Shown in pieces: positions 2,178-64,000 of a DNA stretch of 64,000 nucleotides; within the stretch, counting starts at the first letter, position 1; each line of letters opens with the position of its first letter. The notes below the pieces were generated by a model. The model saw only the letters and a program-made list of their open reading frames with translations, was not told where the DNA came from and searched no databases. Origin of the DNA: Cymodocea nodosa (Eukaryota; Streptophyta; Magnoliopsida; Alismatales; Cymodoceaceae); the NCBI GenBank assembly GCA_036874045.1, contig CM072343.1, forward strand, positions 15,148,001-15,212,000. Direction: 5' to 3'. The position numbers and the translations under genes are program-made.

Positions 2178-4230
2178 TGTTCAGGTTGCTTAGGTGGCAC
2201 CAGAGAACTTATATTGGTTCCCAGGTAGCAACACTAAATAACTTGTATTTGTTAACTTCTGTTTTTAACTTAGTTAATTTGTCTTTATGCTTATTAGTAA
2301 TTCCTTTTTAGAAGTAAACAAACAACCTTTCATACAAATTAGATATTAATTTCAATTTGTACTTTAACTGCAAGTGCATAGTGTATATTGTATTTGTGTG
2401 TAAGTATAGGTCGATCCCATAGAGAAATTGAGTAAGAATTGTGTACTATTTTATTTTTTATAATATACTTAATATGTTTAGTAGTCCCTCCGTTGAGTTA
2501 CAGTTAACACAACAGACTGATCTCGTGGACTTAAGTTAACTCCACAAGCCTATCTTTTCAGTTTAATATTACTATTTATAAAGGGATTCGATCAACCATT
2601 GGGCAGTTTCACAGATTGTAAATAACATCAATTGAGCTCTTTAATGCTAGTGAATATTAGCTTTATCATTAAACAACACTAACATTCAAATATTTCAAAC
2701 AGTAACCATTAAAATCTTTAAGTATCCGGAACAATCGATTTCAGTAAACTATGATACTATTTTCTATTTTCTGAATCAAACAAACACAAAACATTCACAA
2801 TACTAACAATAACAACTTTAATCACAATACAAAACAAACAATACAACACTTGAATACTAAATATAAACTCAGATAAGTTGTTTTTGTTATTTTTGTTTTG
2901 AGATATTCATGAAAATGGGCGAAAGGTGAAATGTAAAAATCTCTATCAACAGTAAATACTTCCGTCACTACATGCTACGCGATTACACCACTGAAAACTT
3001 AATCACTTACAATTTTTCCTCCTCTCCCTATAGAATCGCGAGTCTAGAATTGTAAGATGATCTCCTCTTCAGCATACTGAGATCAACCTGAAACCAAGGT
3101 TAGAAGCTTTACGATCTCCTAAGATATGAGTCAGTGCTTAGTGAAAATGGCTTCCCTTCCCGCGACGTGATCACTCCTCACAATGGTTGTCAGGCATCGT
3201 GTTTGGCTCGGAATCGACCCGACATCAGGAAAGTATCCTCACAGACCTCTGATGGTTGGTGATTATGGTAATTATGGTGATGTTGGTGAATTGTTGGTGT
3301 TGGTGTGGATGATTCAATGAACTTCCGATGCTGCCTGCAGTTAGCGCAGTCCTCCACCTTTACACACACTGCCACACACCTCCAACCACCCCTTCTTCAT
3401 TTTTTCTCCTCTTCTTTTATATTTCTTTAGTAGTAACTGCTTCTGCTTAAAATGATCGGTTGAATTTCCTTCATTCAGATCAACGATGGTGATTTCTTCT
3501 CCTTTGCACGAGTGAATTCTTGCATGATACGTGCAATCGTAGCCTTTCTTCGAATGTCCTGTTTCTGTAACCGCTATAGTGGCATATTAGAAAATAAATG
3601 GTCCATGGAGTTACAGATAACTCAACAGACTTACTTCGTTGATTTAACTATAAAACACATGCACTAAAGAAATAAGCTACTAACCTAACGTGTTACCTTA
3701 ATGTGTATTCATGTAACTCAACGCGTACAGTTATGCTAACTTAACGAGTTAAACATGTGTATCTCACGTGATATACTAAAACATTTAAATTCAACACGTG
3801 CATAATTCTAACTTAACAAGTTCAAATATTTCGGACACTTACGAACCTAACTATTCAATGCCTAGATGCATTTCGAATAGTTAACAGATAACTTACCGAA
3901 AATCCACTTAAGTCATGCATTATGGTTTCAACACATGTACTTCAAGAAATAATAAAATATTCTTTAAAACATAACTGTCTGGTACATTAAACATAACTCT
4001 CCAAAATAACAGAAAATTCAGATACTTAAGAATTTCATAGCCTGCAATTTACCGACAGTCTAAAAATGTACTAAATTAACATTAATTTCCTGGAATTATG
4101 TAGATTCTTTCATTAAAGCTTATAATAGTGCAATTATAACATAATGGCTTAATTCTCATATGATAAGCTAAATATTAAGCAATTAACCATCATTTAACCA
4201 TTAATATTATGCACTTTTTCATTCTAAACA
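2178..4230 (-). mobile_element. Solo LTR of the Athila-like family, antisense to its host element
   Basis: The 2053-bp segment matches the LTRs at 8978-11871 and 48656-50489 in minus orientation. In its own sense it starts TGTTTAGAATGAAAAAGTGC and ends ...CCTGAACA, so it has TG...CA termini. A 5-bp duplication, ACGTG, flanks it at 2173-2177 and 4231-4235. The right copy shows the uninterrupted target at the corresponding place (about 55110-55130). A conserved TATA box (AAATATAAAAG on the minus strand) lies at 3414-3424. No internal region or second LTR is present, so LTR-LTR recombination is the likely origin. A 61-codon sense ORF at 3190-3375 is probably not a gene. Confidence 0.88.
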
Positions 4231-4431
4231 ACGTGCATTATAAATATAGAATAGAATGTTATTTACTGGTTACGAGCAATTGAGGAGAGAAAAGAAAATT
4301 TGTTGGGGAACTGGAAGGAGAAGCAACTAATTCGACTTATGTCAACAACTATTTACTAAGAACAAAGTTTCAGATTGGTATGTAATTAATCTTCTGTAAT
4401 TTTACTTTATGTTAAGAGTTTATGAGCACAT
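4231..4431 (+). pseudogene. Remnant of small ORF upstream of gag (left copy)
   Basis: This stretch aligns with a 101-codon ORF at 54909-55214 (minus) in the right copy, including ELEGEAA-like codons and the sequence before the capsid ORF. Here the 5' half is cut off by the solo LTR and the rest has stops. Its function is unknown. It could be a leader or an N-terminal extension of gag. Confidence 0.4.
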
Positions 4432-5770
4432 GGACTCATTCTCCTAGCACTAAATGATTAGTAAAAACACCTACATAGGATTATTCAACACAAAAGCATA
4501 CTAAGAGATTTTCTGAATTGGACTTTAACGAAATCCTTAGGGGTGTAATTAACCTTTCTTTAAAGGAGAACAGAGATATGACTGCTCCAGTAGAGAAACA
4601 ATTAGGGGAAATTTTGTATTTAGAATTAGTTGATGAACATTCATGTATTCAATTGCTAAACTTTGAGGGAGATAGGTTTGAACTGAAATCTAATTATATT
4701 AGTCAATTGCCATACTTTCATGGATTAGAAAGAGAAGATTCCTATTATTTCCTTAGAGAATTTAACGAAATTTGTCAAATGATGAAAATGTTGAACATGA
4801 GTATTGATGCTATTAAACTTAGATGCATTCCTTTTGCTTTAAAAGACATAGCTAAGAGATGGTTATATACTTTGTCGCCTGATTCAATTTCTGTGTGGAG
4901 TAAATTTTACTCTATTTTTCTAGAAAAATATTATCCAACACATCAAACGATTAAAAAGAAAAAGGAAATATTAATGTGTAGCAAAAAAAGGGAGAATCAT
5001 TCTAAAAATATTTTGAACAATTTAAAAATTTACTAACTCAATATCCACATCATGCAATGAGTAAAGCACAATTAATAGGTATACTTTATGAAGACATAGA
5101 TGTTTCAACTAAATCTTTATTAAAATCTACTTGCTAGAATGGATTTTTAAAACTATGTAGTGAAGAAGCATGGGCATACTTAGAAAACTTTGTAAAAAGA
5201 ACTACTTAGTGGGAAAACTTGGCTGAAGCTATTACAGATAAAAGAATATTACCAAGGGGAATGCATGAAATAGATTCAAGTACTATGCTTGAAGTTAAAT
5301 TAACTGAGTTAATAAAGAAAATAGAGGATTTATCATTAAATCAAAAACTAGCAGAAAAGAATGCAAATATTAATGACTTAGATATTATTTATGCTAGAAA
5401 CTATAAAGATAACTTTAGAAATTTTTATAACCCTAATTGGAGAAATCACTTGAACTTATCTTGGAGAAATAACAATTTCCAAGGAGGAGAAAATATAAAT
5501 AACAAAAATATAAGTTATGAAGCATTAATTGAACAAGGATCTAGAATAGAGAAGTTAGAAAAGGTAATTCAACAATTAAACAATCGTCTAAACCATGTAT
5601 TTGGAAATGCTACCATTCAAAATCAAAATATGAATAGAAATATACCTCCTAGATAGAAGGAATCAATAGAAGTTAGACCTACTAGAGGATTGCCAATGCA
5701 AGTAGTGCTTAACCCTATTAATAGAACTGTTAATGAAATTGATACCTCCTATGAGACGAAAGCTAAATGA
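4432..5770 (+). pseudogene. gag: gag capsid domain (Retrotrans_gag, Athila type), left copy
   Basis: Open parts are 4518-5036 and 5219-5656. The first contains the capsid (Retrotrans_gag) core: FHGLEREDSYYFLREFNE, then DAIKLRCIPFALKDIAKRWL, then FLEKYYP. The second has the basic stretch YNPNWRNHLNLSWRNN, a hallmark of Athila gag, followed by a coiled-coil heptad stretch (IEKLEKVIQQLNNRL). A frameshift near 5030 and TAG codons, for example 5207-5209, break the frame. The TAG at 5207-5209 is at the same codon as the TAG at 54152-54154 in the right copy. No zinc knuckle is encoded here. In the right copy the knuckle is encoded next to the primer binding site, more than 8 kb away. The gene lies downstream of ORF3, which is not the usual place for gag. 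Confidence 0.85.
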
Positions 5771-5930: not shown

Positions 5931-5985
5931 GCTATGTTAATTTTATCTTTGTTTAAATTTTATTTATGTTACATAATCACAACAG

Positions 5986-10330: not shown

Positions 10331-10671
10331 GCACCTGACCATCAAATAGTTAAATTTATGCACGTGTTGAATTTAAATGCTTTAGTATATCACGTGAGAT
10401 GCACATGTTTAACTCGTTAAGTTAGCATAACTGTACGCGTTGAGTTACATGAATATTACACTAAGGTAACGTGTTATGTTAGCAACTTATTTCTTTATAT
10501 TTTCTAATATGCCACTATAGCGGTTGCAGGAACAGACAGTTGGAAGAGAAAAACCATGTTTGCACGTATCACGTAGGAATTCAATCACGTAGGGAGAAGA
10601 AAGCATCGCCGTTGATATGAATGAAGGAAATCCAACCGACCATTCAAGCAGAAGCAATTACTACCGAAGAA

Positions 10672-10680
10672 ATATAAAAG
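10672..10680 (+). promoter_or_regulatory. TATA box of the 3' LTR
   Basis: ATATAAAAG, preceded by GAAGA and followed by a purine-rich stretch. The same sequence occurs at the same place in the other LTRs (3414-3424 minus, 12274, 13825, 49823-49833 minus), so it is the most conserved promoter element of the family. Confidence 0.7.
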
Positions 10681-11871
10681 AAAAGAAGAAAAAAAGAAGA
10701 AGTGTGATCAATGTGTGATTAATGGACGGACAATGTGTGCAGAGGAGGATGAGCGTCGCAATTCTCTAAAGTACTACACCAACCACCATCGTCACCATCA
10801 TCACCACCATAATCACTAACCATCGGAGGTCTGTAAGGATACTTGCCTGATGTCGGGTCGATTCCGAGCCAAACACAGTGCTTGACAACCACTATGAGAA
10901 GTGATTGCGTCGCGGGAAGGGAAGCCATTTTCACCAAGCGCTGACTCATATTTCAAGAGATTGTAAAGCTTTTAGCCATGGCTTCGGGTTGATGTCTATA
11001 TGCTGAAGAGGAGATCATCTTGCAATTCTGGACTCGTGATTCTATAGGGAGAGGAGACAGAATTGTAAGTGGTTTAATTTTCAATGGTGTAATCGCGTTG
11101 CAAGTAGTGTTGGAAGTATTTACTGTCAAGTGAGATTACTTTACATTTCACCTTTCGCCCATTTCCATGTTCACATCAAAACAAAAATACCAAAAACAAT
11201 TTATCTTTGTTTGTATGTTGTATTTGAGTGTTGTATTGTTTGTGTTGTATCGTGATTAATGTTATCTGTATCAGTTTTGTGATTGTTTTATGTTAGTTTT
11301 AATTTTACAGTTTATTGAAATTGGTTCGTACCAAAGACTTAAAGATTTTAATGGTTACTGTTTGAATCATCTGAATGTTAGTATTGCTTAATGATAAATC
11401 CAATGTTAACTAGCATTAAAAAGCTTAATTGATGTTATTTACAATCTGTGGAATCGCCCAATGGTTGGCCGAATTCCTCTGTAAATATCAATATTATAAA
11501 GAAGAGACAGGCTCGTGGAGTTAACTTAAGTCCACGAGGATAGTCCGTTGAGTTAGCCATAACTCAACGAACTTTGTCCGTTGAGTTAACTGTAATTCAA
11601 CGGAGTGCTTATTGAATATAAATTTGAATTATTAACAATCAAACAGTTCTTAAATTCATCAGTAATTCCCTATGGGATCGACCTGTACTTGCACACTGAT
11701 ACAATAGACACTATGCACTTGCAGTTAAAGTACAAATTGGAATTAATATCTAAATTGTATTAAAGGTTGTTTGTTTACTTCTAAAAGAAAGAATAGGCAT
11801 AAAGATAAATTAACTAAGTAAAAACAGAAGTAACAAATCTAAGTTTTTCTAGTGTAGTGCTAGGAAAACCA

Positions 11872-13440
11872 AACAATGCACGTGCTAAATTTAAATGTTT
11901 TATTATGTCACATGAGCTACACATATTTAACTCGTTAAGTTAGCATAATTATACGCATTGAGTTACTTGAATATACACTAAGGTAATGTGTTGTGTTAGT
12001 GTTATAAGCTTATAAGTATTTCTTTATTGTATGTGTTTTATAGTTAAGTCAACGAAGTAAGTTCGTTAAGTTACACTAACTCCACGAACCATTTGTTTTC
12101 TAACATGCCACTATAGTAGTTGCAGAAATAAAAATACGAAGGAAAACCACGATTGCACGTATCACGCAGGAATTAACTCATAGAATGAAGAAGAAATCAC
12201 CATCGTAGATATGAATAAAGGAAATCCAACTGATCATTTAAGAAAATAAGCAGAAGCAGTTACTACTGAAAGAAATATAAAAGAGGAGAAAAACCATGTA
12301 AGGGTGTGGGTGGAGGACCGTGCTAACTATAGGAAACGTCGAAAGTTCCCTGAAGCTCTACAACACCACCAAAATCACCTACCATCAGAGGTTTGTGAGG
12401 ATACTTTCTAGATGTTAGGTCGATTTCGAGCCAAACATGGTGATTGACAACCATTGTGAGGAGTGATCATGTCGCAGGAAGGGAAGTCATTTTCATCAAG
12501 CACCGACTCATATCTCAAGAGATCATAAAGCTTCTAGCCTTGGTTTCGACTTGATGCTAGTATACCGAAAATGAGATCAACTTACAAGTCTTGGTTCGTG
12601 ATTCTATAGGGAGAGGAGGCAAGATTGTACGTAGTTAAATTTTCAATAGTGTAATCGCATCGCATGTAGTGACGGAAGTTCTTACTATCGATAAAGATTT
12701 TTACATTTCACCTTTCACTTATCTTCAGGAACATATCAAAACAAAAATACCAAAAACAACTAATTATCTATGTTTGCATTTAGTATTAAAGTGTTGTATT
12801 GTTTATTTTGTATCGTGATTAATGTTATCATTGTTATTATTATGAATGTTTTATGTTTGTTTAATTTAGAAAATAGAAAATAGTTTTATTATTTACTGAA
12901 ATTGATTCGTCGAGAATACTTAAAAATCTTAATGGTTACTGTTTGAAATATCTAAATGTTAGTATTGCTTAATGACAAAACTCATATTATCTAACATTAA
13001 AAAGCTTAATTGATGTTATTTACATTCTATGAAACTACCCAATAGATGGCTGAATTTCTCTATGAATAGTAGTACTTAACTAAAAAGGTAGGCTCGTGAA
13101 GTTAACTTAAGTCCACGAGGTTAGTCCATTGAGTTAACCATAACTCCACGAACTAAGTCTATTGAGTTAACTATAACTCAACAAAGTGCTTAATTGAACA
13201 CATATATAAACTCTATTATAAAAGTTGAAATAGTACACAATTCTTACTCAATCTCTATGGGATCAACTTATACTTACACACAAATACAATATACACTATG
13301 TACTTGCAGTTAAGAACAAATTAGATTTAATATCTTATTTATGAAGATTGTTCGTTTACTTTTAGCAGAACTTATAAATATACATTTAAAAGTCATTGAA
13401 CAAAAGAGGATTTACTTCTTCCATAAAACATAGAACCTCG
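11872..13440 (+). repeat. 5'-truncated LTR of the same family (second in row)
   Basis: Begins inside the LTR at ATGCACGTGCTAAATTTAAA, equivalent to about 10368 of the intact LTR, and runs through the TATA box (AAATATAAAAG near 12274) and the palindromic modules (13090-13200) to the conserved end region (TATGGGATCAACTTATACTT). The right end is diffuse. The left element probably inserted into this older LTR, whose missing 5' part would then lie left of the window. Confidence 0.7.
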
Positions 13441-13499
13441 TAAAGTTAAGAATTATTTCACACGTCAACTCTTAAATGATTAAGAATTACTTCTTTTAC

Positions 13500-20472: not shown

Positions 20473-20670
20473 TATCTTCTTCTTCTTCTTTGGGTTTCTT
20501 CCTCCACCCTCTTCTTCTTCTTCTTCTTCTTCTTCTTCTTTGGGTTTCTTCCTCCACCCTCTTCTTCTTCTTCTTCTTCTTCTTCTTCTTTGGGTTTCTT
20601 CCTACACCCTCTTATTCTTCTTCTTATTCTTCTTCTTCTTCTTCTTCTTATTCTTCTTCTTCTTCTTTGG
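20473..20670. repeat. (TTC)n microsatellite, second block with higher-order repeat
   Basis: Three to four copies of a ~60-bp unit (TTC)n + TTTGGGTTTCTTCCTCCACC, including TTATTC variants. It lies about 150 bp upstream of the small gene's TATA-like sequence. Confidence 0.9.
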
Positions 20671-44270: not shown

Positions 44271-44279
44271 TATTGAATT

Positions 44280-47004: not shown

Positions 47005-48655
47005 CTATTCTTGCTATTTCTGCTCCACCATCTGTTTAATGTCCAAAATCACGTACCAATCAAGCTTGATAAAAGCAATTACATCATTTGGCATGCATCA
47101 TTCCTTGCAATGTTACGTACTTATGATCTCCTAAGGTATGTCGATGGAAGTTTCACCTGTCCATCGTCTAATGCCTCTGATGAAGGTGTTGATGCAATGA
47201 CCGCTTATAGGAAGCATGACCAACTAATCATAAGCTAGATCTTTTCATCGTTGACATTGCCAATTCTTGCTCAAGTAGCAAATCAAACCTTTATTGCTAA
47301 TGTATGGCAGGTTTGGAATGCACTTATGCATCCAAATCTCAAGCTTGATTGCTTCATTTGAAGCTTGATCTTTAGACAATGAAGAAAGAGAATTAGTCTA
47401 TACTGGAATATATCACTCATGCCACTATGCTTGCTGATAATCTTGCTAATGCAGGAAATGTTTTAAGTAAGGAGGAGATTGCCTTAAGCTTGCTTGGAGG
47501 TATTGGCCTAAAGTATGATGGCTTCGTCACAAGCATAACAACTCAACCATATACTGTTAGTCTTGTAGATCTACAAAGTATGATGTTGAATCAAGAATTG
47601 CAAGTTAATAGGTATATGAGTGCAAATGCATCGATTAATCTTGTAGTGAATCAGAGGAGCCTTCAATCTCAAGGTGGTCGTGGAAGAAATCAAAATAATG
47701 GAAGGAGAGGAGGAGGTTGCAGAAGCAATGTCTGGTGTTAGACTATAGTAAACCAAGTCACTTGGCATTGAATTATTTCAAGAGGCTTGATGTTGAAAAT
47801 GTTGCTCCTACTCGCACCAACAACTCTAATGCTAATAATCTCAGTATTACAAGGGTGAGACTACAGTAGATAATACTTTATGGTACCTAGATTTAGGTGC
47901 CACACATCATGTCACCAGTGATTTAGCAAATCTAGCGATTAGTTTACCATATGTAGGGGCTAATTCAGTTGTAGTAGACAATGGAGCGTCGTTACCAATC
48001 ACACATACTTGGAATGCAACTATCACTATTGATCATGGTAAAATTTATCTTAATGATATTTTAGTTGTTCCTTAAATTCGGAAAAATCTCATGTCTTTCT
48101 ACAGATTTTGTAAAGATAATCCTATGAATATTGAATTTGATGTCAAAGGATTTTCAATCAAGGATCGTCGAACAATAGAGCAAGTGCATCGAGGACTTGC
48201 TGATCAGGATCTACATCAGATGCAAGTATCACAAGGAAGTAGGAATTTAATTCAAGTTTGTCTTGTTGTTCAAACTTCTTATAATGTTTGGCACTATAGG
48301 TTAGGGCATCCTAATCCCTAACCAACACTATCAATAATAAATTCAAACTTTTTACCAATTAATAGTAATGATATGTTGCATTTTTGGTAAGACACATAAG
48401 CTTCTCTTTAAAGATGGTACATTTGTGGTGGATGGGCCTCTTACCTTAATATACAAATATTTATAGGGACCAAGCCCTATTGCTTCTAAGCAAGGTTATA
48501 AATATTATATTACCTTTATTGATGCTTGGTAAAAATATACTTGGTTGTTTCCTTTGTCATGCAAATCAAAGGCATTAAATGCTTTTATTAATTTTAAAAC
48601 ATAGATTGAGAAGAGATTAGGAAGAAGTATTAAGATACTTTAAAGTGACTGTTCT
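47005..48655 (+). mobile_element. Ty1/copia retrotransposon relic B, cut by the right Athila-like element
   Basis: Plus-strand order: gag (47020-47740), protease remains (about 47880-48075; WYLDLGATHHVTSDLAN, ILVVP), pre-integrase (48090-48320; NVWHYRLGHPNP) and integrase start (about 48460-48655; GPSPIASKQGYKYYITFIDA, then IEKRLGRSIKIL). It stops abruptly at 48655, where the LTR of the right element begins, so the remainder should lie beyond the window. Stops and frameshifts are present. Confidence 0.8.
47020..47740 (+). pseudogene. gag: copia gag (UBN2 type), broken
   Basis: 47011-47238 reads VPIKLDKSNYIIWHASFLAM and DLLRYVDGSFTCPS, the N-terminal gag_pre/UBN2 signature. 47427-47741 continues with NVLSKEEIALSLLGGIGLKY and ends in an RGG-rich tail (GGRGRNQNNGRRGGGCR) expected just before the zinc knuckle. 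The frames are separated by stops at about 47238-47426. Confidence 0.8.
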
Positions 48656-50489
48656 TGTTTTCCTAGCACTACACTAGAAAAACTTGGATTTGTTACTTCT
48701 ATTTTTACTTAGTTAATTTATCTTTATGCCTATTCTTTCTTTTATAAGTAAACAAACAATCTTTAATACAATTTAGATATTAATTCCAATTTGTACTTTA
48801 ACTGCAAGTGCACAGTGTCTATTGTATCAGTGTGCAAGTACAGGTCGATCCCATAAGGAATTGCTGACGAATTTAAGAAATGTTTGATTGTGAACAATTC
48901 AAATTTATATTCAATAAGCACTGTAACTCAACGGACTAAGTTCGTTGAGTTATGGATAACTCAACGGACTATCCTCGTGGACTTAAGTTAACTCCACGAG
49001 CCTGTCTCTTCTTTATAATACTGTTAATTACAGAGGAATTCGACCAACCATTGGGCGATTCCACAGATTGTAAATAACATTAATTAAGCTTTTTAATGCT
49101 AGTTAACATTAGATTTATCATTATGCAATACTAACATTCAGATGATTCAAGCAGTAACCATTAAAATCTTTAAGTTGTTTTGTACGAACCAATTTTAGTA
49201 AACTGTAAAATTAAAACTAACATAAAACAATCATAAAACTGATACAGATAACATTAATCACGATACAACACCAACAATACAACACTCAAATACAACATAC
49301 AAACAAAGATAAATTGTTTTTGGTATTTTTGTTTTGATGTGATGGGCGAAAGGTGAAATGTAAAGTAATTTCACTTGATAGTAAATACTTCCAACACTAC
49401 TTGCAACGCGATTACACCATTGAAAATTGAACCACTTACAATTTTGTCTCCTCTCCCTATAGAATCGCGAGTCTAGAATTGCAAGATGATCTCCTCTTCA
49501 GCATACAGGCATCAACCTGAAGCCAAGGCTAAAAGCTTTACGATCTCTTGAAATATGAGTCGACGCTTGGTGAAAATGTCTTCCCTTCCCATGATGCAAT
49601 CACTCCTCACAGTGGTTGTCAAGCACTGTGTTTGGCTCGGAATCGACCCGACATCAGGCAAGTATCCTCACAGACCTCCGATGATTGGTGATTATGGTGG
49701 TGATACGATGGTTGGTGTGATACTTCGGAGAATCGCCGATATTGTTTGCAGAAAGCTCGGTGCTCCTCCTCTGTATACACTGGCCATCCATCAATCGCAT
49801 CCTTTCTTTTTTTTCTTCTTTTCTTTTATATTTCTTCAGTGGTAACTTCTTCTACTTGAATGGTTGGTTGAATTTCCTTCCTTCAGATCAACGGCGATGA
49901 TTTCTTTCTCCCTACGCGATTGAATTCCTGCGTGATACATGCAAACGTAGTTTTTCCTTCCAACTGTCTGTTCCTGCAACCGCTACAGTGGCATATTAGA
50001 AAATATATAGTCCGTGGAGTTACAGATAACTCAACGGACTTCCTTCGTTGATTTAACTATAAAACACGTGCAAAAATAACAACTTAAGTTTATAACGCTA
50101 ACCTAACGCGTTGCCTTAGTGTATTTTCATGTAACTCAACACGTGCAGTTATACTAACTTAACGAGTTATAATGTAAGTAAATCTACCAGCTCTTAACAC
50201 ATGTCAGTAGCAGTTTAAACATAAAATAACATTCCGGAGAGTTACAGGTATAACTATTTGATGCTCAGATGCATTTTCGGATACTTAAGAATTTCACAGC
50301 CTGCAATTTACCAACAGTTCATAAATGTACTAAATTAACATTAATTTCCCAAAATTAAGCAGATTCTTCAATTAAAGCATATAATAGTGCAATTATAACA
50401 TAATGGCTTAATTCTCATATGATAAGCTAAATATTATGCAATTAACCATCATTTAACCGTTAATAATATGCACTTTTTCATTCTGAACA
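48656..50489 (-). repeat. 3' LTR of the right Athila-like copy
   Basis: In element sense it starts TGTTCAGAATGAAAAAGTGC after the polypurine tract and ends TGCTAGGAAAACA, so it has TG...CA ends; 1834 bp. TATA box AAATATAAAAG (minus) at 49823-49833. Palindromic GTTGAGTTA modules at 48921-49005 and 50010-50060. The U3 tandem array of the left LTR is much shorter here. Confidence 0.9.
49823..49833 (-). promoter_or_regulatory. TATA box of the right 3' LTR
   Basis: AAATATAAAAG on minus, at the same relative position as 10672-10680 in the left LTR. Confidence 0.7.
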
Positions 50490-50503
50490 CTTCCCCCATA
50501 CCT
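50490..50503 (-). promoter_or_regulatory. Polypurine tract (right copy)
   Basis: Minus strand AGGTATGGGGGAAG abuts the LTR start. Same core as 8965-8977. Confidence 0.85.
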
Positions 50504-52261: not shown

Positions 52262-53401
52262 TTAAGAACATGATTGAAAAGTAGAAACAAATGGAATAAA
52301 TGTATCAGTCCAAGCAAACTTTTTAGGCATAGTTCTTCTTGCTATTAATTCTGTTTTAATGCAGTTCTTGGTCCTTTTTAATTTGTAAACATGCAATATA
52401 TTATAAATTCCAAATACAAGTGTATTACCATTAATGATATGTAATGCAGAAAGGGATCCTTTCTGGTTCCAAGGTAATGTAGCAGTTTCTATTTCTACAT
52501 CTATTTCAATATACTCCTCTTCCCACTTTCATTCATTCATGTCTTCCATAATCCATATTTGAAATTTCATCAGTTCATCCTACCATCTTATCAGACATAA
52601 AGTAGGATCATCTTCTTCATTATACCACATTCCTATTTGAATTTTATTAAATTTTTCAGATGGTGGTTTAGCTATTTCACTCGGTACAGGTAAAATTTCT
52701 ATATAATCATCATAACTGTCTATGCTCACTATGTATAAATTAGATCTATATGCTATTGATATCTCCGTGACTAAATAAATATAACCATCAAGTATGACAT
52801 GTGTTTGGTTAATTAATGATTTTTGTCCTAGATATATTATAATGTTTTCATTCCAAGATCTGTTTAGAAAATTATACACACTTAAGCGTAAATCTTCACC
52901 CCAATTTCCTGTAGGTCTCCAATAATATAATTTTTCAGGAATTGCATAATTTTTATCAGAAAATATTAAAGTTGACCCACAATTTTCAATTGGTGCTTCA
53001 AATATATTAGGTCTTCCTATATTACATTCTTCTCCTGTTATAAGATTTCTTATCAAAATCTCAAGTAATGATAAACTTGCATACCTTGGTCTCGTCTTGT
53101 ATATGATTAATCCTTCATCTATCCCCATAATATGACTCATTCCTTCTAATGCATTGGGTGGAATTCCAGTAGTTTCTTCCATAGCCAGATATTCATGGGT
53201 ATTTGAACTACGATTAAATGACCTCCATATGAATTCATCTCTAATCTTAGTCATTTTTGCAGCTTGTAGTCCCTGAAAATATATTTCTTCAATACAGTCT
53301 TTAATTTCCTTTGATACACAACACATCCTAGATAGATCTTTAGCTGACAAGTTACTTAGTATTTCCCTTTGTGCATCCAACGGTAATTGCATTAATTCCA
53401 T
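52262..53401 (-). CDS. F-box protein ORF carried by the retrotransposon, right copy (two stops near C-terminus)
   Basis: The open part is 53401-52580 (273 codons). Residues 4-45 form an F-box: LPLDAQREILSNLSAKDLSR, then VSKEIKDCI. The body is collinear with the left copy (5986-7118): GIPPNALEGMSHIMGIDEGL, RNLITGEECNIGRPN, KLYYWRPTGNWGEDLRLSVY, LDGYIYLVTEIS. A TAG at the position where the left copy has Gln, and a TGA where it has Trp, interrupt the last ~105 codons, which end FQSCS at 52262-52264. No signal peptide or membrane segment. It begins about 190 bp after gag, separated by a palindromic module, so it is probably a separate cistron. By family it would bind SKP1 and direct substrates to ubiquitination. 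The target is unknown. Confidence 0.8.
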
Positions 53402-53464
53402 TTGTCGATTCTGTAAAATAAAAACAAAAATTTAACAGAAACAAAAATTAACATAACTACTGCA

Positions 53465-53535
53465 CACTCCCTTGGAGTTAAGGAATAACTCAACAGACTA
53501 AGTTCGTTGAGTTAAAAATTAACTCTACGATACTA
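53465..53535. repeat. Palindromic GTTGAGTTA module between gag and F-box ORF (right copy)
   Basis: On plus: GGAATAACTCAACAGACTAA then GTTCGTTGAGTTAAAAATTA then ACTCTACG. Same place as 5860-5930 in the left copy. Confidence 0.75.
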
Positions 53536-53589
53536 TTAACTTAAAATAAAAATAAAAACATATATACATATAGATAGTTGCTTCAGATA

Positions 53590-54940
53590 TGCTGCTTCAT
53601 TCAGCTGCCCTCCTAGAAGAGGTATCAATTTCATTAACCGTTCTATTGACAAGATTAGGTATAGCTTGTATTGGCAATCCTCCAGTAGGTCTAACTTCCA
53701 TTGGTTCCTTCTGTCTAAGTGGTATATTTCTATTCTGATTTTGATTTACAGCATTTCAAAATATAAATTATAGACGATTGTTTACTTGTTGGATTATCTT
53801 TTCTAATTTCTCTATTCTAGCTCCTTGTTCAATTAATACTTCATAACTTATGTTCTTCTCATTTATATTTTCTCCTCCTTGGAAATTGTTGTTTCTCCAA
53901 GATAAATTCGGGTGATTTCTCCAATTAGGATTATAAGAATTTCCCAAGTTATCTCTTTGGTTTCTAGCATAAATAATATCTAAGTCATTTATGTTTGTAT
54001 TCTTTTCTGCTAGCTTTTGATTTAATGATAACTCTTCTATTTTCTTTGTTAATTCATTTAATTTCACCTCAAGCATAGTATTGGAATCTATTTCATGCAT
54101 TCCTCTTGGCAATAATCTTTTATCTGCAATAGCTTCAGTCGAATTTTCCCACTATGCAGTTCTTTTTGCAAAATTTTCTAAATATGCCCATGCTTCTTCA
54201 TTACATAATTTTAAAAATTCATTTTGACAAGTAGATTCTAATAAAGATTTCGTTGAAACATCGATGCCTTCATAAATTATGCCTATTAATTGTACTTTAC
54301 TCATTGCATGATGTGGACATTGAGTCAGTAAATCTTTAAATCTTTCAAAATATTTCCAGAATGATTCACCCTATTTTTGGCTACACATTAATATTTCTTT
54401 CTTCTTTTTAATCGTTTGATGTGTTGGATAGTATTTTTCCAGAAAAACAGAGCAAAATTCAGTCTATGTAGAAATTGAATCAGGCAATAGAGTATATAAC
54501 CATCTCTTAGCTGTATCTTTTAAAGCAAAAGGGATATATCTAAGTTTAATAGCATCTATACTCATGTTCGGCATTCTCATCATTTGACAAACTTCGTTAA
54601 ATTCTCTAAGGAAATAATAGGCATCCTCTCTTTCTAATCCATGAAAATGTGGCAATTGACTAATATAATTAGATTTCAGTTCAAACCTATCTCCGTCAAA
54701 GTTTGGCAATCAAATACATGAAGGTTCATTAATTAATTCAGGATACAGAATCTCTCCTAATGGTTTTTCTACTGGAGCAGTCATCTCTATGTTCTCTTTT
54801 AAAGAAAGGTTAGCTACACCCCAAAGAATTTCGTTAAAGTTCAGTTCAGAAAATTTTTCAGTACTCCTCTGCAATGAAAATTCCTGGATAGGAGTTCTTA
54901 CTAATTGCTTAGTGCTTAGAGAATGAGTCCATGTGCTCAT
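53590..54940 (-). pseudogene. gag: gag capsid domain (Athila type), right copy, downstream of ORF3
   Basis: Pieces at 54940-54710, 54709-54464 and 54112-53768, with remains between and to about 53590. Capsid signature: FELKSNYISQLPHFHGLERE, then DAYYFLREFNEVCQMMRMPN, then FALKDTAKRWLYTLLPDS. The basic segment is YNPNWRNHPNLSWRNN, followed by a predicted coiled coil (IEKLEKIIQQVNNRL). Stops: one before MPNFDG (TGA), TAG at a Trp position after SIST, TAG after SQK, and TAG at 54152-54154 shared with the left copy. In known Athila elements gag lies between the primer site and protease. Here it is at the other end of the element, and no capsid domain is found near the primer site. Confidence 0.85.
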
Positions 54941-55214
54941 AAATAAATAACAGAAGATTAATTACATACCAATCTGAAGCTTTCCATTCTATAAATATTT
55001 GTTGTCGGATGAAGGTTGAATCAGCTGCTTCTCCTTCCAGTTCCTCCAATGCTTTCTCCTTTCTCTTAAAAGTGCTGGTAACTCGTAAATAACATTCTGT
55101 TTCATATATATACTGCGCATCCATAAAGTGAATAAATCTCGTTGCAAGAACGTGTCTTGCAATGTGCATCGTGGTTCCTATTTTAATGGGTACGTGTACC
55201 ACTATTAATTTCAA
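54909..55214 (-). CDS. Small ORF of 101 codons before gag, unknown
   Basis: Starts at 55214, ends overlapping the first gag frame. It is mostly charged in the middle (FKRKEKALEELEGEAA). It aligns with the left copy on both sides of the solo LTR (2140-2177 and 4231-4431), so it was present in the common ancestor. No known domain. It may be a gag leader, or contain a splice donor (TTGGTATGTAA). Confidence 0.35.
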   Translation of the reverse strand: MKLIVVHVPIKIGTTMHIARHVLATRFIHFMDAQYIYETECYLRVTSTFKRKEKALEELEGEAADSTFIRQQIFIEWKASDWYVINLLLFIYEHMDSFSKH

Positions 55215-55267
55215 ATTTTGGTAACCGCTAAACCGACGAAGTTTCGTTTGTGGTTAAAAGAATATTC

Positions 55268-55886: not shown

Positions 55887-58132
55887 TTAATCTCTATGCC
55901 TAAGTTCATCTACTTCCTTCTGGAGTTTTTCTAATTGCTACTCTAATTGATTTATCCTCTCTACTGCTCTTGCAATTTCTCCAGAAGGTACAACTAATTC
56001 TGCAACTACAAAATTTATGTATTCTTTCACTGAAATGGTTCTAGATCTTATCCTTTTTGATGTCCATTTAGTGAAATCAATACTATCCACCATCAGCAGT
56101 GGAATCAAATCTCCATAAGTAATTTCTTCTTCACTGTTTTCAGCTTGGAGATAAAAACTGCAGACCAATTTATTTGGATCTTATTTACAACTGCATACGT
56201 GACCCATTTGACAAATTGACTTAATTCTATGTCATGGCCTTGTCGTTGATAGACATTCTTAATCAGAATGTTAGCTACCATGTGTGTTTTACCATTTAAA
56301 TGCTTCAATTTGTTTAATAATGGCACACTAGGATTGATAGCTAAACAATCCTTAATTTGCTGCTCAGTCCATTCAACTACAGTTGTATCTTCCAAAATTT
56401 TTGTTCCTTCATTCTTTAAACCAAATATGTTGTGGAGAAGCTCTGGTGTTATCTGTACATCAGCTTCCTCCACGTTTAAAAGTAATCCTCCTTCTCCTTC
56501 TCTTGAATTTGCATAGAAACAGGGCACTAAATTCTCATATACTGCATGCCCTCTTTCTTGAGATATAAATTGCAGTAGACCTTGGAATTCAAATAGATCT
56601 TTGATTTCTTGCATTCCATCCCAATTTATTGGTCTACTGTAAATAATATCGTAACCCCTTATTTCTTGGTATTTGGTATAAGCTTTCTGACTACAAAAAT
56701 GTACTTCATTCAAAATTGTTGTTTCAGTCGGGTCAGGAAGGTAACTTTGTTGCTCCAGAGGGGTTTGCTCTTGCTCTTCCTCTAGCATAGGCTGCATTTG
56801 GACATTCTCTTCAAATTCCTGAATTTTTGCTTTTGCTTCTGTCTATGGTGGTGAGCTGGCAGAACTTTCCACTCTATCTTGAATTTTTCCATAATTTGCT
56901 GAAGAGTTTCTTGCTCTTTAGTGGAATCTGTGAAATTATTTTTTGTCCAAATGGCTTCTTTTAGCCTCTTCATTTTCTACTCTTTCTTCTTCCTCCTGAC
57001 TACCAATCTGTTCTGTTACTGTTCTTTCTGATTCTGTAACAGATTGGGATGGAGTCATGGGCAATTCAGTTTCTACCCTTATTTCTGTTTCTTCTTGTAC
57101 AGACTGCAAATTAATTTCAACCTGATTTTTTTCTTTTCTTTGCTCCTCCTGCTCCTCAAATTCGAATAGCAGGTTAATAAAAATCTGCTCCACAGGCCCT
57201 GTAAAAATTGGTACTTCAGATTTAATTTCTTCATAATCAGGCACTTTTTCTTTTTCTTTCTTTTTTCTGATTAGTTGTGCCTATTCTTCCTCTTCATCTT
57301 TTGAAATTAAATCTACAAAAATAGGCTCTGCAGGCTTTCGAACCACAGGTACTGGCTCTTCTTGTTTAATTCTTCCAATAATTGCTGGTCTCGAAGGACC
57401 AACTTTAGCTTCTTTTGCAGCATATCTAACAGCAATTCTGGCAGTAGCTTCTTGATGTTGTTCCACTTTAATTTTATATTGGGCTTTCAACTTTTCTGCA
57501 GCCCTCTTTTTGTACAGGGCATCAAACACCAGGTGTGCTTTAGCCACTACCAAATCTTCTGATTTTCCTTGGTTTTTTCCAACTTCAACCAGTTCTACAA
57601 ATTCTCTTATTTCTTCTTCAGTCGAAGGCCCCATCATTTTTGCTCGTGCCAATGGCTTAAATAGTGGAACTGAAGGTCCAGACTGCTGCTCCTCAGGAAC
57701 AGGTCTTTCAGTAGTTGGTTCCTCCCGTTATTCAGTTGCCTCTTCATTTGCTTTCCTTTCTTGCTCCCAGATCACCCGTTTAGCTTGTCTACAGATTCGT
57801 CTTTTGAACTAGAGTCGGGACTTACGCTGGATTAATTCTAGGGCAACTTCATTACTTGACCTTATGTGTCTTTCCTTGCTTACAGCTATTTCTGTTGCTA
57901 TTCTGATTCGTGTTTTCATTATTTAAGGTATTTGTATATCCATATCTACTAAATTTCTTCTAAACTTGAAAAGTTCTAATTCTACCTTCTGTAGCTCTTT
58001 CTCTCTTGTCGTATTTCTGATCTTCTGCCGCATGTGCCACTCTTCTGATTCCTTCAGAAATTCTGATGTATCAACAACATCTTCCCAAAATTTAGGCGTC
58101 ATCTTCCTCATCATGGAGTTACACAACAGCAC
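55887..58132 (-). pseudogene. ORF3 (env-position, plant transposon protein domain), right copy
   Basis: Starts at 58132 with a 69-codon piece (MTPKFWEDVVDTSEFLKESE), then Glu/Lys/Gln-rich coiled-coil-like pieces (57652-57281, 57244-56936, 56973-56782), then the globular domain in 56797-56105 (230 codons). That domain has FYANSREGEGGLLLNVEEAD, LLHNIFGLK, AINPSVPLLNKLKHLNGKTH and FVKWVTYAVVNKIQINW. A frameshift near 56120 leads into 56168-55938, and the end is at 55887. The domain resembles the putative plant transposon protein domain common downstream of integrase in Athila. No obvious signal peptide or C-terminal anchor, so an envelope role is not supported here. Stops and frameshifts make it a pseudogene. 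Confidence 0.75.
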
Positions 58133-58289
58133 AAAATCGCTCTAATTTCTACTGTTCTAGATTCTAAATGATTTGTCGGATAATGCCCCCAAAACCCTAG
58201 GTTTTAGTTTAAATAAGCACTAAGTTTAGGCGTGTAATCAGGTCATTTCCCGAACCAACTATTACTATTTTATCCGCGGTCCTAGCTAT

Positions 58290-58859: not shown

Positions 58860-61048
58860 AATTAAAACTCGAGTAGTCCTCTACTCTGACTTCTTCTATA
58901 ATTCCAAAGGAGCTTTTTGGTGTTTTTAGAATAGGTTTAAGTCTTTGTCCATTTACTTTAAATATATTCTGATTTTTAGGATTTTAAATTTTAATAGCTC
59001 CATAAGGATAAACATTTCAAACTATGTAAGGTCTTGCCCATCTAGATCTTAATTTTTCCTAGATGGTTATGGAGTCTAGCCAGATAAAGATATACTTCTT
59101 GTCCTATTTCAAAGTTTTTAGGAATAATTTTTCTATCATGCCAAAATTTAATTTTCTCTTTTTCTCTTACAGTCTTTGAATAAGCTTCATTTCTAAATTC
59201 TTCTAATTCAATTAGTTGCATTTTCCTATTTTCAGCAGCTTGATTTAAATTAGTGTTCAGAGTTTTTAATGCCTAATAAGCTTTATGTTCTATTTCAGCA
59301 GGTAAATGACAACTTTTTCCATATACTAGCCTAAAAGGTGACATATCTAAGCTCGTTTTATAAGCAGTTCTATAAGCCCAAAGTGCATCAATCAATCTAT
59401 TAGCCCAATCTGTTCTAGTAGGATTTACTACTTTTTCTAAGATTAATTTAATTTGTTTGTTTGCACTTTCTACTTGTCCACTTGTTTGCAGATGATATGA
59501 TGTTGCAATTTTGTGGTTTATTCCATATTTCTTCATTAAGGCTTCAAAACTTCTATTACAGAAATGAGTTCCTCTATCACTGATAATAGCTTTAGGTATT
59601 CCAAATCTGGCAAATATATTTGTTCTTATAAATTGTATTACCACTTTGTTATCTTTAGTTTTTGTAGGAATAGCTTCTATCCATTTAGATACATAATCCA
59701 CCCCCAACAGTATGTAATTAAATTGATTAGACATAGGAAATGGATCGACAAAATCTATTCCCCACACATCAAAGATTTCAACCTCAACAATAGGATTAAG
59801 AGTCATCATATTCCTTTTTCATATTCTTCCTATTTGTTGGCATCTTAAATAACTTAAGCAATATTTATGAGCATCTTTGAATAGTGTTGGCCAATAAAAC
59901 CCACATTGTAGAATTTTTGCAGCAGTTTTCCCTAAACCAAAATGTCCTCCACAAGCTTGGTCATGACAGAAAGACAATATGCTCGAATATTCAGTTTCTG
60001 GAACACACCTCCTTAAAACCAGATCAAAACATTTCTTAAATAAGTAAGGGTCTTCCCAATAGTAATATTTTACTCTTGAGAAAAACAATTTCTTATCCTG
60101 TCTATTCCAATCCTTAGGTGTTAAACCAGTAACTAAGTAATTAATTATGTCTGCATACCAAGGCATTGTGTTGATGGTCATTAATTGTTCATCAGGAAAA
60201 TTATCCTTAATTTCAATATTTGATTTTTCTATTTGTAATCTTGATAAATGATCTGCTACTACATTCTCACAACCTTTTTTATCTTTAATTTCTAGATCGA
60301 ATTCTTGCAATAATAATATCCATCGGATCAATCTAGGTTTAGTTTCTTTTTTCTTTATTAGATGTTTTAGAGCTGAATGATCCGTGTATACTATTACTCT
60401 AGCTCCAATCAAATATGATCTAAACTTTTCTAAAGCAAACACAACAGCTAATAATTCCTTTTCAGTAGTTGTGTAATTAACTTGAGCATCATTTAAGGTT
60501 TTGCTTGCATAATGAATCACTCTAGGAGATTTTTCTATTTTCTGTCCTAACACTGCTCCTACAGCAAAATCAGAAGCATCGCACATTAATTCAAATGAAT
60601 GGTTCCAATTAGGTGCTTGAATTATAGGAGTTGAAATTAAGCTAGTCTTAAGTCTAAAAAATGCTTCCTTGCAATTTTTATCAAAGTTAAATGGAACATC
60701 TTTTAATAGATTAGTTAAAGGTCTAGGTATCTTGCTAAAGTCTTTAATAAATCTTCTATAAAAACCAGCATGTCCTAGAAATGATCTAATATCTTTTACT
60801 GGTTTAGGTTCTGGTAGATTAGAAATTACTTCTATTTTAGCTTTATCTACTTCCAACCCTTTTTTAGAAACAACATGCCCTAAGACTATTCCTTGTTTAA
60901 CCATGAAGTGACATTTTTCCCAATTTAAAACCAGATTTTTTTCCACACAGCGTTTTAATATTTGGTCTAAATTGCTTAAACACACTTCATATGAGTTGTC
61001 ATATACAGTAAAATCATTCATAAATATTTCTAAAAATTCATTAATCAT
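58860..61048 (-). pseudogene. pol: pol: RT C-part, RNase H and integrase
   Basis: The 409-codon frame (61048-59819) starts in RT with FMNDFTVY, where the second D-D position should be Asp-Asp; the first is Asn. It continues through RT thumb ([18 protein letters not shown]), RNase H ([47 protein letters not shown]) with its acidic residues kept, and the integrase zinc-binding HHCC. The next frame (59809-59273, 178 codons) is the integrase core with [16 protein letters not shown] and SGQVES, an intact D,D-35-E spacing. The C-terminal domain (QAAENRKMQLIELEEFRNEA; KFWHDRKI; NIFKVNGQRLKP) reaches about 58860 with stops. Confidence 0.9.
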
Positions 61049-61063
61049 TCTAGTAAATATGCC

Positions 61064-61540
61064 CTACACACACCTTTGAAAGGTAGTTGGTGCATTACAT
61101 AATCCGAATGACATTCTTTTAAAAGCATAAGTTCTATTAGGACAGGTGAAAGTTGTTTTCTCTTGATCCTCTAATGCTACTGGAATTTGATTATACCCTG
61201 AATACCCGTCTAGGAAATAAAAATATTCTTGCCCTGCTAATCTTTCCAGCATTTGATCTATAAAAGGTAAGGAAAAATGATCTTTCCTAGTCACAGCATT
61301 CAACTTTCTATAGTCTATACATACTCTCCAACCTGATTGAATTCTAGTAGGTATCAAGTCTTGACTTTCATTCCTAATAACTGTTAATCCTGATTTCTTG
61401 GGAACTACATGGATTGGACTAACCCACGAGCTATCAGAAATCGGATATATTATATCATTATCTAACCATTTAACTATTTCCTTCCTGACTACTTCCTTAA
61501 GGTTTGGATTTAATCTCCTCTCAGGAATTCTAACAGGTTA
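61064..61540 (-). pseudogene. pol: pol: reverse transcriptase N-part
   Basis: The open part 61357-61064 covers RT blocks 2-4: SGWRVCIDYRKLNAVTRKDH, FSLPFIDQMLERLAGQEYFY, FLDGYSGYNQIPV, TFTCPNRTYAFKRMSFGLCN, APTTFQRC. Upstream remains (SWVSPIHVVPKKSGLTVIRN) join to the protease frame across a TAA at 61537-61539. A TAG at about 61062 separates it from the following frame. Confidence 0.9.
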
Positions 61541-62974
61541 AGCATTCTCTTCTAAATATATGTGGTGACAACATAAAGTTGAACTTAACCCTTTTATATC
61601 AGTCATAGTCCATCCTATTGCTTCTTTATAACTTTTTACTACATCTTTTAATTTAGCTATTTGATCCTCTTTCAAATCTGAAGCAATAATGATTGGACAG
61701 GTCTGTTTATCTTCCAAAAATATATAGGTTAATTCAGGAGGTAAAGGTTTTAATTCTAAATACTGCCCATCAGAAGCTAGAGCTCCTAATTGAACATCAT
61801 CATTTTTTAAATTAATTTCTTCCTGATCTCCTTCTATATTTATGCTTTCACTTTCTTCTAAAGTTTCAGAATTGATTTGCCTATTTAATTCTTCTTGAAT
61901 CACATCATCTAACATATCTCCTTCATCCTCTAAAAAGTCTATGGTATGTAAGGACATTTCTAACTCCTCAAACATTTTTGGTTTGAAAATATTTAATTGA
62001 GTATCCTCATTACCATATGCTAACTTCATTACTCCAGTTTTACAATTTATAACAGCCCTTGATGTTGCTAAAAATGGCCTTCTCAAAATTAAAGATGTAT
62101 CACTATTTTTATGCTTAATTTGTTGGGAATCCAAAATTACAATATCAATAGGATATATAAAATTCTTGATTTTAATTAAGACATCCTCTATTTTTCCTCT
62201 AGGGTATCTTATACTTCTATCAGCTAATTGAATAACCGTACTAGTAGGAGTTAAGACTTCTAATCCTAAGGATGTAAATATATCACTTGGCATAACATTT
62301 ATACCTGCACCTAAATCTATTAAGGTTCTTTCTAGAATGATATTTCCTATGGTGCATGATATAACAAGGATTCCAAGATCAGATAACTTTTTAGGAATTT
62401 GTGGCAGAAATAGGTAACTACTTTGCTCAGCTAAAAAGACATTTCTAAGAACTTTTCGCTCTCTTTTCTTAGTACACCAATCCTTTAGAAATTTAGCACA
62501 AGGTGGCATATTCTGCAATAGATCTAACAAAGGAATGTTAACTTGTACTTTTTCAAAAATTTCTCTGATTTTTTCTTGTTTTTCAGGAATTGTTTGTTGT
62601 AATCTTTTAGGATAGGGTGTTAAAGATTTTGATTTCAAAGATTCTTTTTCTTTCAGTTGATTTGTTTGATTATTTTTAGCTTCAATTGCAGATTCAGATT
62701 GTTCTTCAGTGATTTCTAGATTTTCAGCTATTACATTTTCATTATCATTTTGATTTTTACTCTTGTCTGCCTTCATATCATTTTCATTTTGAGTTCTTGG
62801 TGGTATATCAGTTCCAGATCTTAATGTTACACATACATCTTCCAGATTTTCGTTACTTTCATGATGTTTTTGTATATCATTTTCGTGATTATGATCTTTA
62901 ATTGTTTTTAGCTTTAAAGTGCATTCTTTAAATTCTCTTACATTAGTGTTTTCTATTTGTTGTATATTTTGCAA
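61538..62974 (-). CDS. pol: Aspartic protease region and flanking linker (478 codons)
   Basis: The longest open frame of the element. The N-terminal ~150 residues are Glu/Asn/Lys-rich linker. Residues about 200-300 form the retropepsin-like domain: TLIDLGAGINVMPSDIF carries the catalytic Asp in the Athila-type DLGAS context, LADRSIRYPRGKIEDVLIKI and IDIVILD follow, then RRPFLATSRAVINC, where LGRPFLAT is usual. The C-terminal part (YIFLEDKQTCPIIIASDLKE, IGWTMTDIKGLSSTLCCHHI) is the bridge into RT. It processes the polyprotein in active relatives. Here the frame is open, but RT next to it is broken. Confidence 0.85.
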   Translation of the reverse strand: MQNIQQIENTNVREFKECTLKLKTIKDHNHENDIQKHHESNENLEDVCVTLRSGTDIPPRTQNENDMKADKSKNQNDNENVIAENLEITEEQSESAIEAKNNQTNQLKEKESLKSKSLTPYPKRLQQTIPEKQEKIREIFEKVQVNIPLLDLLQNMPPCAKFLKDWCTKKRERKVLRNVFLAEQSSYLFLPQIPKKLSDLGILVISCTIGNIILERTLIDLGAGINVMPSDIFTSLGLEVLTPTSTVIQLADRSIRYPRGKIEDVLIKIKNFIYPIDIVILDSQQIKHKNSDTSLILRRPFLATSRAVINCKTGVMKLAYGNEDTQLNIFKPKMFEELEMSLHTIDFLEDEGDMLDDVIQEELNRQINSETLEESESINIEGDQEEINLKNDDVQLGALASDGQYLELKPLPPELTYIFLEDKQTCPIIIASDLKEDQIAKLKDVVKSYKEAIGWTMTDIKGLSSTLCCHHIYLEENA

Positions 62975-63142
62975 GTTGTGTAGGTTTATAACATTATAAT
63001 TTTCATTGTCCTATTGTAAAACTTGTATTTTCATTGCATTTTTGTCTAATGCTTTTAATTTTGTTTCCAGATCATCTAATTTCATTGCATTTAATTTTTG
63101 ATCAATTTTCTTTATGGCTTTTTCAGTTTCGTAAATTATATC

Positions 63143-63583
63143 CTATTTAGGTTCTGAATATTCCTCCTTATAATTTAATTGGTTGACTTCTTGTTGTTGA
63201 CACACAAAGTATTCCAGTTTGTCTAGATTTTGCTCTATACTATGCTCTAGTCTGTCATAGCTATCCCAAACTTCAGTGTCTCTCATCATATTACACATTC
63301 TATACTGACCATCAGTTGGGTAAACTATAGGATTCTCATACTCGGCTCTATTATATTGAGGATAATTCATTTGTTGTTCATGGGATCTATCAATCTGTAA
63401 ATGTTTCAATTTCAAACAATCAGAAATGTCGTGTCCTTTAGAATTGCAGAATTCACATATGCTAATTAAAGGTTTCAGAAATCTTTGAGCATAAGCATAT
63501 GCCATATCCTCAATTACAGAAGAAAACACACAACTCTGACTATTAAAATGAAACAACTCTAACAGTTGCTTATATCTATTCAA
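63143..63583 (-). CDS. gag: gag-end zinc-knuckle ORF (146 codons), without capsid domain
   Basis: Contains CEFCNSKGHDISDC (residues about 43-56), a CX2CX4HX4C zinc knuckle as in retrotransposon nucleocapsid. The rest is charged, with possible coiled coil (RLEHSIEQNLDKLEYFVCQQ). The ORF begins only 86 bases after the primer binding site, leaving no room for the capsid domain usual there. The frame continues downstream with stops (DDLETKLKALDKNA) to the protease ORF. Confidence 0.75.
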   Translation of the reverse strand: MNRYKQLLELFHFNSQSCVFSSVIEDMAYAYAQRFLKPLISICEFCNSKGHDISDCLKLKHLQIDRSHEQQMNYPQYNRAEYENPIVYPTDGQYRMCNMMRDTEVWDSYDRLEHSIEQNLDKLEYFVCQQQEVNQLNYKEEYSEPK

Positions 63584-63669
63584 TTCAATTCAATTCAGTT
63601 CAATTCAATTCAATTCAATTCAATTCAATTTAATTTGATCCAGTTCAATTCAATTCAGTTCAATTCAAT
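63575..63669. repeat. (CAATT)n pentanucleotide repeat in the leader
   Basis: About 18 units of CAATT, with CAGTT and TAATT variants, fill the gap between primer site and the first ORF. The frame at 63566-63754 on plus is an artefact of this repeat. Confidence 0.95.
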
Positions 63670-63687
63670 TCCCCGGCAACGGCGCCA
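63670..63687 (-). promoter_or_regulatory. Primer binding site complementary to tRNA-Asp
   Basis: Minus-strand TGGCGCCGTTGCCGGGGA is complementary to the 3' end of plant tRNA-Asp including CCA. It lies 13 bases inside the 5' LTR end. This primer is known from Athila-lineage elements. Confidence 0.9.
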
Positions 63688-63700
63688 TAAAACTTGTTCG

Positions 63701-64000
63701 TGTTTTCCTAGCACTACACTAGAAAAACTTGGATTTGTTACTTCTATTTTTTAACTTAGTTAATTTATCTTTATGCCTATTCTTTCTTTTAGAAGTAAAC
63801 AAACAACCTTTAATACAATTTAGATATTCATTCCAATTTGTACTTTAACTGCAAGTGCACAGTGTCTATTGTATCAGTGTGCAAGTATAGGTCGATCCCA
63901 CAGGTAACTGCTGACTAATTTAAGAAATGTTTGATTATGAACAATTCAAATTTATATTCAATAAGCACTCCGTTGAGTTAACTGTAACTCAACAGACTAA
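63701..64000 (-). repeat. 5' LTR of the right Athila-like copy (partial)
   Basis: Reads TGTTTTCCTAGCACTACACT from 63701 on plus, like the 3' LTR from 48656. The rest lies beyond the window. A palindromic unit at 63969-63995 is complete here but half deleted at the matching place of the 3' LTR. Confidence 0.9.

Follow-up and report, generated by a model that had tools for sequence, protein, structure and literature searches.

Is an F-box gene a regular part of a plant LTR retrotransposon, and how would the element reach it? The question arises from one stretch of Cymodocea nodosa DNA (64,000 nt, C15:15148001-15212000; hereafter the window), in which an earlier note had reported a 273-codon frame with an N-terminal F-box at 52262..53401, aboard an Athila-like element. 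We found that this interval is correct, and that the ORF itself runs on the minus strand from the ATG at 53401 to the end of the stop codon at 52580 (273 codons). Its translation matches the F-box family PF00646 at residues 4-38 with E=1.4e-8, above the curated cut-off. This significant match bears out the 273-codon frame with its F-box and removes the objection that the ORF might have no F-box HMM hit.

The ORF is real, but the earlier note overlooked that it is incomplete. The homologous frame continues past 52580 to 52262, the left edge of the reported interval, and comprises 379 codons in full, and the window ORF is a truncated copy of this 379-codon gene. When the 379-residue form was compared with the HMMs, PF00646 again lay above its cut-off (E=4.4e-10, 39.5 bits against 20.5), whereas the FBA_1 match at residues 202-307 fell below threshold (13.2 bits against 21.1, E=0.086). 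In the PDB, a profile of ten copies matched only two FBXO4 sequences, marginally (E=0.89) and in their F-box, and a PDB search with one F-box sequence returned just an unrelated chain (E=0.47). The host F-box gene from which the ORF might have come was sought in two protein searches, and no relative was found: none of 283 candidates reached E <=0.001 in one, and none of 3,654 candidates with an alignment reached E <=0.1 in the other. From its domain, we infer that the F-box protein is an SCF substrate receptor.

The plant's own genome (374.6 Mb, 28 contigs) was searched with the protein, and 141 of the 6,184 first-look candidates were scored. All 141 scored matches cover residues 1-272 or 1-273 at 92-100% identity, and the ORF is therefore not a chance frame. 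In 16 of the 30 best genomic loci the frame is open through codon 379 (no stop before codon 380). A pattern for the unspliced acceptor was found at 1,535 genomic places (777 + 758), and its reversed control at none. The suspicion that the ORF exists in only the two copies of the window is refuted by these places and by the 141 scored matches. We conclude that the F-box ORF belongs to the fixed gene set of a large LTR family of the Athila type.

The features of the two window copies are collected in Table 1. Copy B carries the ORF under study, and copy A belongs to a diverged subfamily.

Table 1. Features of the two F-box-carrying copies in the window (window numbering).
Feature	Position	Strand	Remarks
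Solo LTR nested in copy A, between extra ORF and gag	2179..4230	minus	TSD ACGTG both sides
Gag region, copy A	4235..5656	plus	intron donor GTATGT conserved
F-box gene, copy A	5986-6813	plus	275 codons, diverged subfamily, protein 72% identical to copy B
3' LTR, copy A	10493..11876	plus	
3' LTR, copy B	48650..50489	minus	purine tract 50490-50502
F-box gene, copy B	52262..53401	minus	379-codon frame, stops at codons 274 and 291
Intron	53411..54969	minus	1,559 nt; GTATGT (54969) to TTTTACAG (53411); removed in spliced genomic copies
Capsid-type gag within intron	53768..54940	minus	start codon 54940; frame broken in window copy; no zinc knuckle
Exon 5' of intron	54970..55253	minus	stop-to-stop frame 55253..54909 crosses it; exon extends further upstream
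Extra ORF region, integrase-gag interval	55938..58141	minus	no Pfam family above cut-off
Integrase core	59273..59818	minus	rve, E=4.1e-16
Reverse transcriptase, RNase H and integrase zinc-binding part	59819..61537	minus	two open pieces
Protease region	61538..63010	minus	DLGA motif; Asp_protease_2 E=0.005, below curated cut-off
5' piece of pol frame	63143..63589	minus	CX2CX4HX4C zinc knuckle (CEFCNSKGHDISDC)
PBS TGGCGCCGTTGCCGGGG	63671..63687	minus	7 nt after LTR
5' LTR, copy B	63695..64000	minus	cut by window end; extends to about 65.55 kb

The element reads LTR, PBS, zinc knuckle, PR, RT, RH, IN, extra ORF, capsid gag, F-box, purine tract and LTR. As the earlier note had stated, the F-box ORF sits between gag and the purine tract, inside LTRs at 48650-50489 and from 63695 onwards. 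It had overlooked, however, that gag lies downstream of pol. The Ty3/gypsy order GAG-PROT-RT-RH-INT is thus not followed: PROT-RT-RH-INT is kept, and the capsid gag stands 3' of integrase. Gag itself is also split, with the zinc knuckle found 5' in 6 of 8 loci scanned on that side (not in L037 and L041), and the capsid gag lacking a knuckle in 5/5. The capsid domain was recognized as Retrotrans_gag in a sister copy, L033 (E=1.4e-14). In the open pieces scanned with general Pfam models, RT-type RNase H alone was found; archaeal-type RNase H marks Tat. In copy B and at the five further 5' ends that were read, the PBS, which we take to be of the tRNA-Asp type, lies 7 nt past the LTR; the purine tract GGTATGGGGGAAG of copy B adjoins the LTR at 50489. 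Directly after the PBS lies a pentanucleotide array (63578-63671, 18.8 copies of ATTCA on the plus strand), and similar GAATT runs occur in L033.

The LTR pair of copy B is 93.7% identical. Its flanks differ (GTGGG before, GTCAC after), so that window copy B is not a clean single insertion, and for this reason the gene order was checked at other loci. Among six RT-plus-F-box loci whose ends were fetched, three unspliced, LTR-bounded elements have a TSD (C24, TGTGT; C5, GATCC; C10, GGGGT); in the remaining three the TSD is unreadable, one LTR being cut or missing. The C5 element (7858138..7841371) is 16,768 bp long with LTRs 96.9% identical. Over the span that holds extra ORF, gag and F-box, it aligns collinearly with copy B at 95.3%. 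Its RT match begins about 1.6 kb past the LTR, which leaves no room for another gag on the 5' side; stops are found in its gag frame and none in its F-box frame. In the C24 element (15,608 bp) the RT match begins only about 0.45 kb past the LTR, and most of the knuckle-protease part is therefore gone.

The same arrangement recurs more widely. A listed F-box lies 1,689-1,704 nt downstream on the same strand in 20 of 40 scored gag matches (window copy included), and downstream of 14 of 40 scored RT matches, in 12 of these at 7.65-8.61 kb; matches without one do not mean absence, since the F-box list holds the 141 scored places only. L033/L034 is a derivative that has lost RT and the extra ORF by deletion. 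The three TSD-bounded elements contradict the idea of a host locus around which LTRs lie by chance. Together with a spliced element on C5 described below, they also show the ORF within TSD-bounded copies of the family. In another locus (L031), the integrase-to-gag region upstream of the F-box forms a large inverted duplication (1-3965 and 4703-8212; 3.5 kb, 90.5% identical).

The earlier note, which had recognized an F-box ORF aboard an Athila-like element, missed that gag here has the form of an intron. In the window copy the F-box ATG is preceded by TTTTTATTTTACAG|AATCGACAA, and at L010 and L013, both among the 30 best loci, AATCGACAA is preceded instead by a stretch from 1.56 kb upstream. 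Mapping of this junction showed 54970 joined to 53410. The absent 1,559 nt begin with GTATGT, end with TTTTACAG, and have GT-AG ends and a pyrimidine-rich acceptor. The gag ATG lies 29 nt past the first intron base, and the F-box start codon 9 nt past the junction. Donor and gag ATG are both present in the five unspliced copies where this region was read, including the diverged copy A, in which the donor GTATGT is conserved and the acceptor altered.

The splice-junction pattern, allowing up to 3 mismatches, occurs at 163 genomic places (75 + 88; reversed control 0). This corresponds to a spliced share of about 10%, which is rough because the junction and acceptor patterns differ in length. Of five spliced copies whose ends were fetched, a TSD was found in one: a complete element of 15,160 bp (C5:1402394..1387235) with LTRs and CAACC on both sides, whose F-box frame (L067) is open to codon 379. 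Among spliced copies fetched by pattern, the frame is open to codon 379 in 4/20. The TSD-bounded copy is most readily explained by reverse transcription of a spliced RNA. At least one spliced copy, on C12, retains RT upstream (RT 2727827, junction 2734810), which indicates that the copied RNA was long, without gag but with pol. These genomic copies show a splice by which the F-box gene would be reached, gag being removed as an intron.

In a tree of 51 rows (L025 unlabelled; spliced and unspliced rows sampled differently), the spliced label requires 8 changes (bootstrap 8-9), and strongly supported branches alone force 1. A single spliced clade was rejected (p-AU 0.0039). Several independent origins of the spliced copies are thus likely, short of proof given the different sampling of the two kinds of row and a possible scattering of the label by recombination. 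Splicing is not the cause of every short copy: it was ruled out for L025, which has a shared GACA at its junction and no GT, and was also rejected for the deletions of L033 and of a C19 copy (60548/55660), which show no clear GT-AG ends. A splice from the 5' leader to the pre-gag exon was considered as well; acceptor-like sites were seen by eye near 55545 and 55803, and no such spliced copy was found. At L080-L081 the TSD-bounded spliced element adjoins the leader sequence of another family member, which indicates that the family inserts into itself.

We then compared the changes among F-box copies in 39 gap-free aligned sequences (11/50 were dropped). Singleton changes have a missense/synonymous ratio of 170/57=2.98, against a computed neutral value of 2.97, and include 13 nonsense changes (13/240). 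Changes common to at least 4 copies give 42/24=1.75 with no nonsense change (0/66); this contrast by itself falls short of significance (Fisher p=0.086). All three codon positions vary to about the same extent among 29 close copies (0.031, 0.024, 0.027). A comparison of copy A (5986-6813) with seven copies from the other subfamily gives dN/dS values of 0.29-0.35, and two stretches of gag yield 0.23 and 0.29 between A and B. The missense:synonymous counts between A and B (about 84:55) differ from those of the singletons (170:57) with p=0.005. Within the subfamily dN/dS is 0.67, a rough value, since L015 with its indel was included. Because singletons are nearly neutral and dN/dS between A and B is 0.29-0.35, F-box copies decay neutrally after insertion, while the source lineages kept the protein about as well as gag, as judged from one subfamily pair. 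The comparison of this one pair supports purifying selection on the F-box gene between subfamilies.

The window contains further repeats. Copy A contains tandemly reiterated sub-terminal repeats of about 90-280 bp at 8978-10310, with a relationship to the LTR's initial 214 bp. Three LTRs of related subfamilies stand in a row on the plus strand at 10493-14940 (10493-11876, 11928-13370, 13601-14940), with a further piece at 16567-17264. We also observed a direct duplication of about 960 bp at 18665-20590 (95.5% identical) with a TCT-rich array at 20475-20667, an AT-rich tandem array at 44253-45170 (units of 22-152 bp), and a 104-codon plus-strand ORF at 47427-47741 resembling, by eye, a piece of Ty1/copia gag.

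Taken together, these data favor, with a probability of about 0.7, a large permuted Athila-type family that took up an F-box gene and has maintained it in working form, reached by splicing and linked to the SCF machinery. The element RNA would carry, in order, zinc knuckle, protease, RT, RNase H and integrase, the extra ORF, capsid gag and the F-box gene. Splicing from GTATGT (54969) to TTTTACAG (53411) would excise gag and place the F-box start codon just after the junction, so that unspliced RNA would be translated into Gag and spliced RNA into the F-box protein. Judged by its domain, this protein would most likely join the host SKP1-CUL1 ligase via its N-terminal F-box, and its C-terminal FBA-like region would select the protein to be bound. 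The element would most likely benefit by eliminating a host factor responsible for its silencing or restriction. Such a factor is our first-choice candidate for the target because small plant viruses are described as deploying F-box-bearing proteins against host factors; this assignment is drawn by analogy. The redirected protein turnover and the ARGONAUTE target that the earlier note raised as inference are conjectural in the same way. Some spliced RNAs would have been reverse-transcribed into gag-less copies, which would have had to use the Gag of other copies. The fuller picture, in which the capsid gene is an intron, the splice switches between particles and an SCF receptor acting to eliminate a host silencing factor, and spliced RNAs feed a gag-less satellite population living on its parent family, is tentative, and we consider it possible rather than probable.

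The main rival concerns the target. The F-box protein could be an SCF receptor for Gag or integrase and thereby limit or time particle assembly. The splice choice trades Gag against the F-box protein, which would suit such a feedback loop, but the viral proteins are aimed at host factors and make a host target the better prior, and we regard self-regulation as unlikely. It is quite improbable that the ORF is instead a captured fragment, spread with the element without benefiting it. This would agree with the neutral decay after insertion, visible in the singletons (2.98 vs 2.97) and in the equal codon positions of close copies, and with a large survey in which the extra ORFs of plant LTR elements are described as heterogeneous and of questioned function (PMC6317226). 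A mere passenger is, however, at odds with a dN/dS of 0.29-0.35 between subfamilies, similar to that of gag, with the shift from 170:57 in singletons to about 84:55 between A and B (p=0.005), and with a dedicated intron whose donor is retained in the diverged copy A.

Two other explanations are disfavored. The order of pol, gag and F-box might stem from two neighboring or nested elements rather than one unit, as could be suspected in a window full of nested LTRs whose own copy has no TSD. The 16,768-bp TSD-bounded element has the same order, spacings are near-constant at many loci, and the 5' knuckle and the knuckle-less 3' capsid share one gag between them, which makes such a chimera very improbable. 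No PBS-like site was found between integrase and gag, and self-BLAST of copy B detected no LTR there; a recent fusion of two elements was rejected on these grounds, and an ancient fusion is possible as the origin of the order. Hardly credible, finally, is the proposal that the junction without gag came first and gag entered it afterwards, in which case the copies we call spliced would be uninformative on splicing. Some of them (L069, L070) do branch deep in the F-box tree, but GT-AG ends and a pyrimidine-rich acceptor mark the stretch, gag already occupies this position in the diverged copy A, and the spliced copies are scattered rather than forming one clade (p-AU 0.0039).

Both the splice arrangement and the gene order of this F-box-carrying family are unexpected. 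With this family, a component of ubiquitin ligases joins the set of genes retained under selection in a retrotransposon, which opens a direct way of searching a transposable element for proteolytic counter-defence. Its 163 places are a genomic record of a spliced junction returned to DNA, an event of the kind once proposed for sudden gene loss (PMC1142308).

Host plant F-box/FBA proteins have an N-terminal F-box and about 380 residues. The protein described here resembles them in both respects and in its weak C-terminal FBA_1 match, and differs from them in being encoded by many copies inside an LTR element. It also recalls the F-box proteins of plant viruses (polerovirus P0 and others), where likewise a mobile genome encodes an F-box-bearing protein. 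P0, likened here by its description only, has an F-box-like motif, whereas the present protein has a canonical F-box followed by a long C-terminal region and belongs to a retrotransposon. A literature search over titles and abstract starts, with preprints and most subscription papers outside its scope, returned no report of an F-box gene belonging to an LTR element family. An LTR-associated gene and retrogenes described within the Thlaspi F-box family (PMC8764390) were set aside as a different matter.

The large survey of plant LTR elements gives the Ty3/gypsy order as GAG-PROT-RT-RH-INT and discarded unexpected domain orders as likely mispredicted; the permuted, split-gag architecture found here is of the discarded sort (PMC6317226). 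The survey names other domains in extra ORFs, and the term F-box is absent from its main text (PMC6317226). It also reports partial splicing of element RNA that decides which protein is made, as we propose here, but its intron is a short region between ORFs, whereas here the intron comprises the whole capsid gag and the splice reaches an extra gene (PMC6317226).

As described for Athila, Calypso and Diaspora (PMC1142308), the present family has long LTRs with TG...CA ends, a 5-bp TSD, a tRNA-Asp-type PBS near the LTR, a capsid gag with the usual Pfam domain and an extra ORF after integrase. In those elements gag and pol form one ORF, and in Diaspora the zinc finger lies within gag and the PBS is of the tRNA-Asp type (PMC1142308). 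The present family departs from the Athila lineage in that gag lies downstream of pol, is split from its zinc knuckle, is intronic and is followed by an F-box gene. The authors of the Diaspora study proposed that improperly spliced subgenomic RNA, once reverse-transcribed, could cause gene loss in one step (PMC1142308), and the present family shows events of the kind that they proposed.
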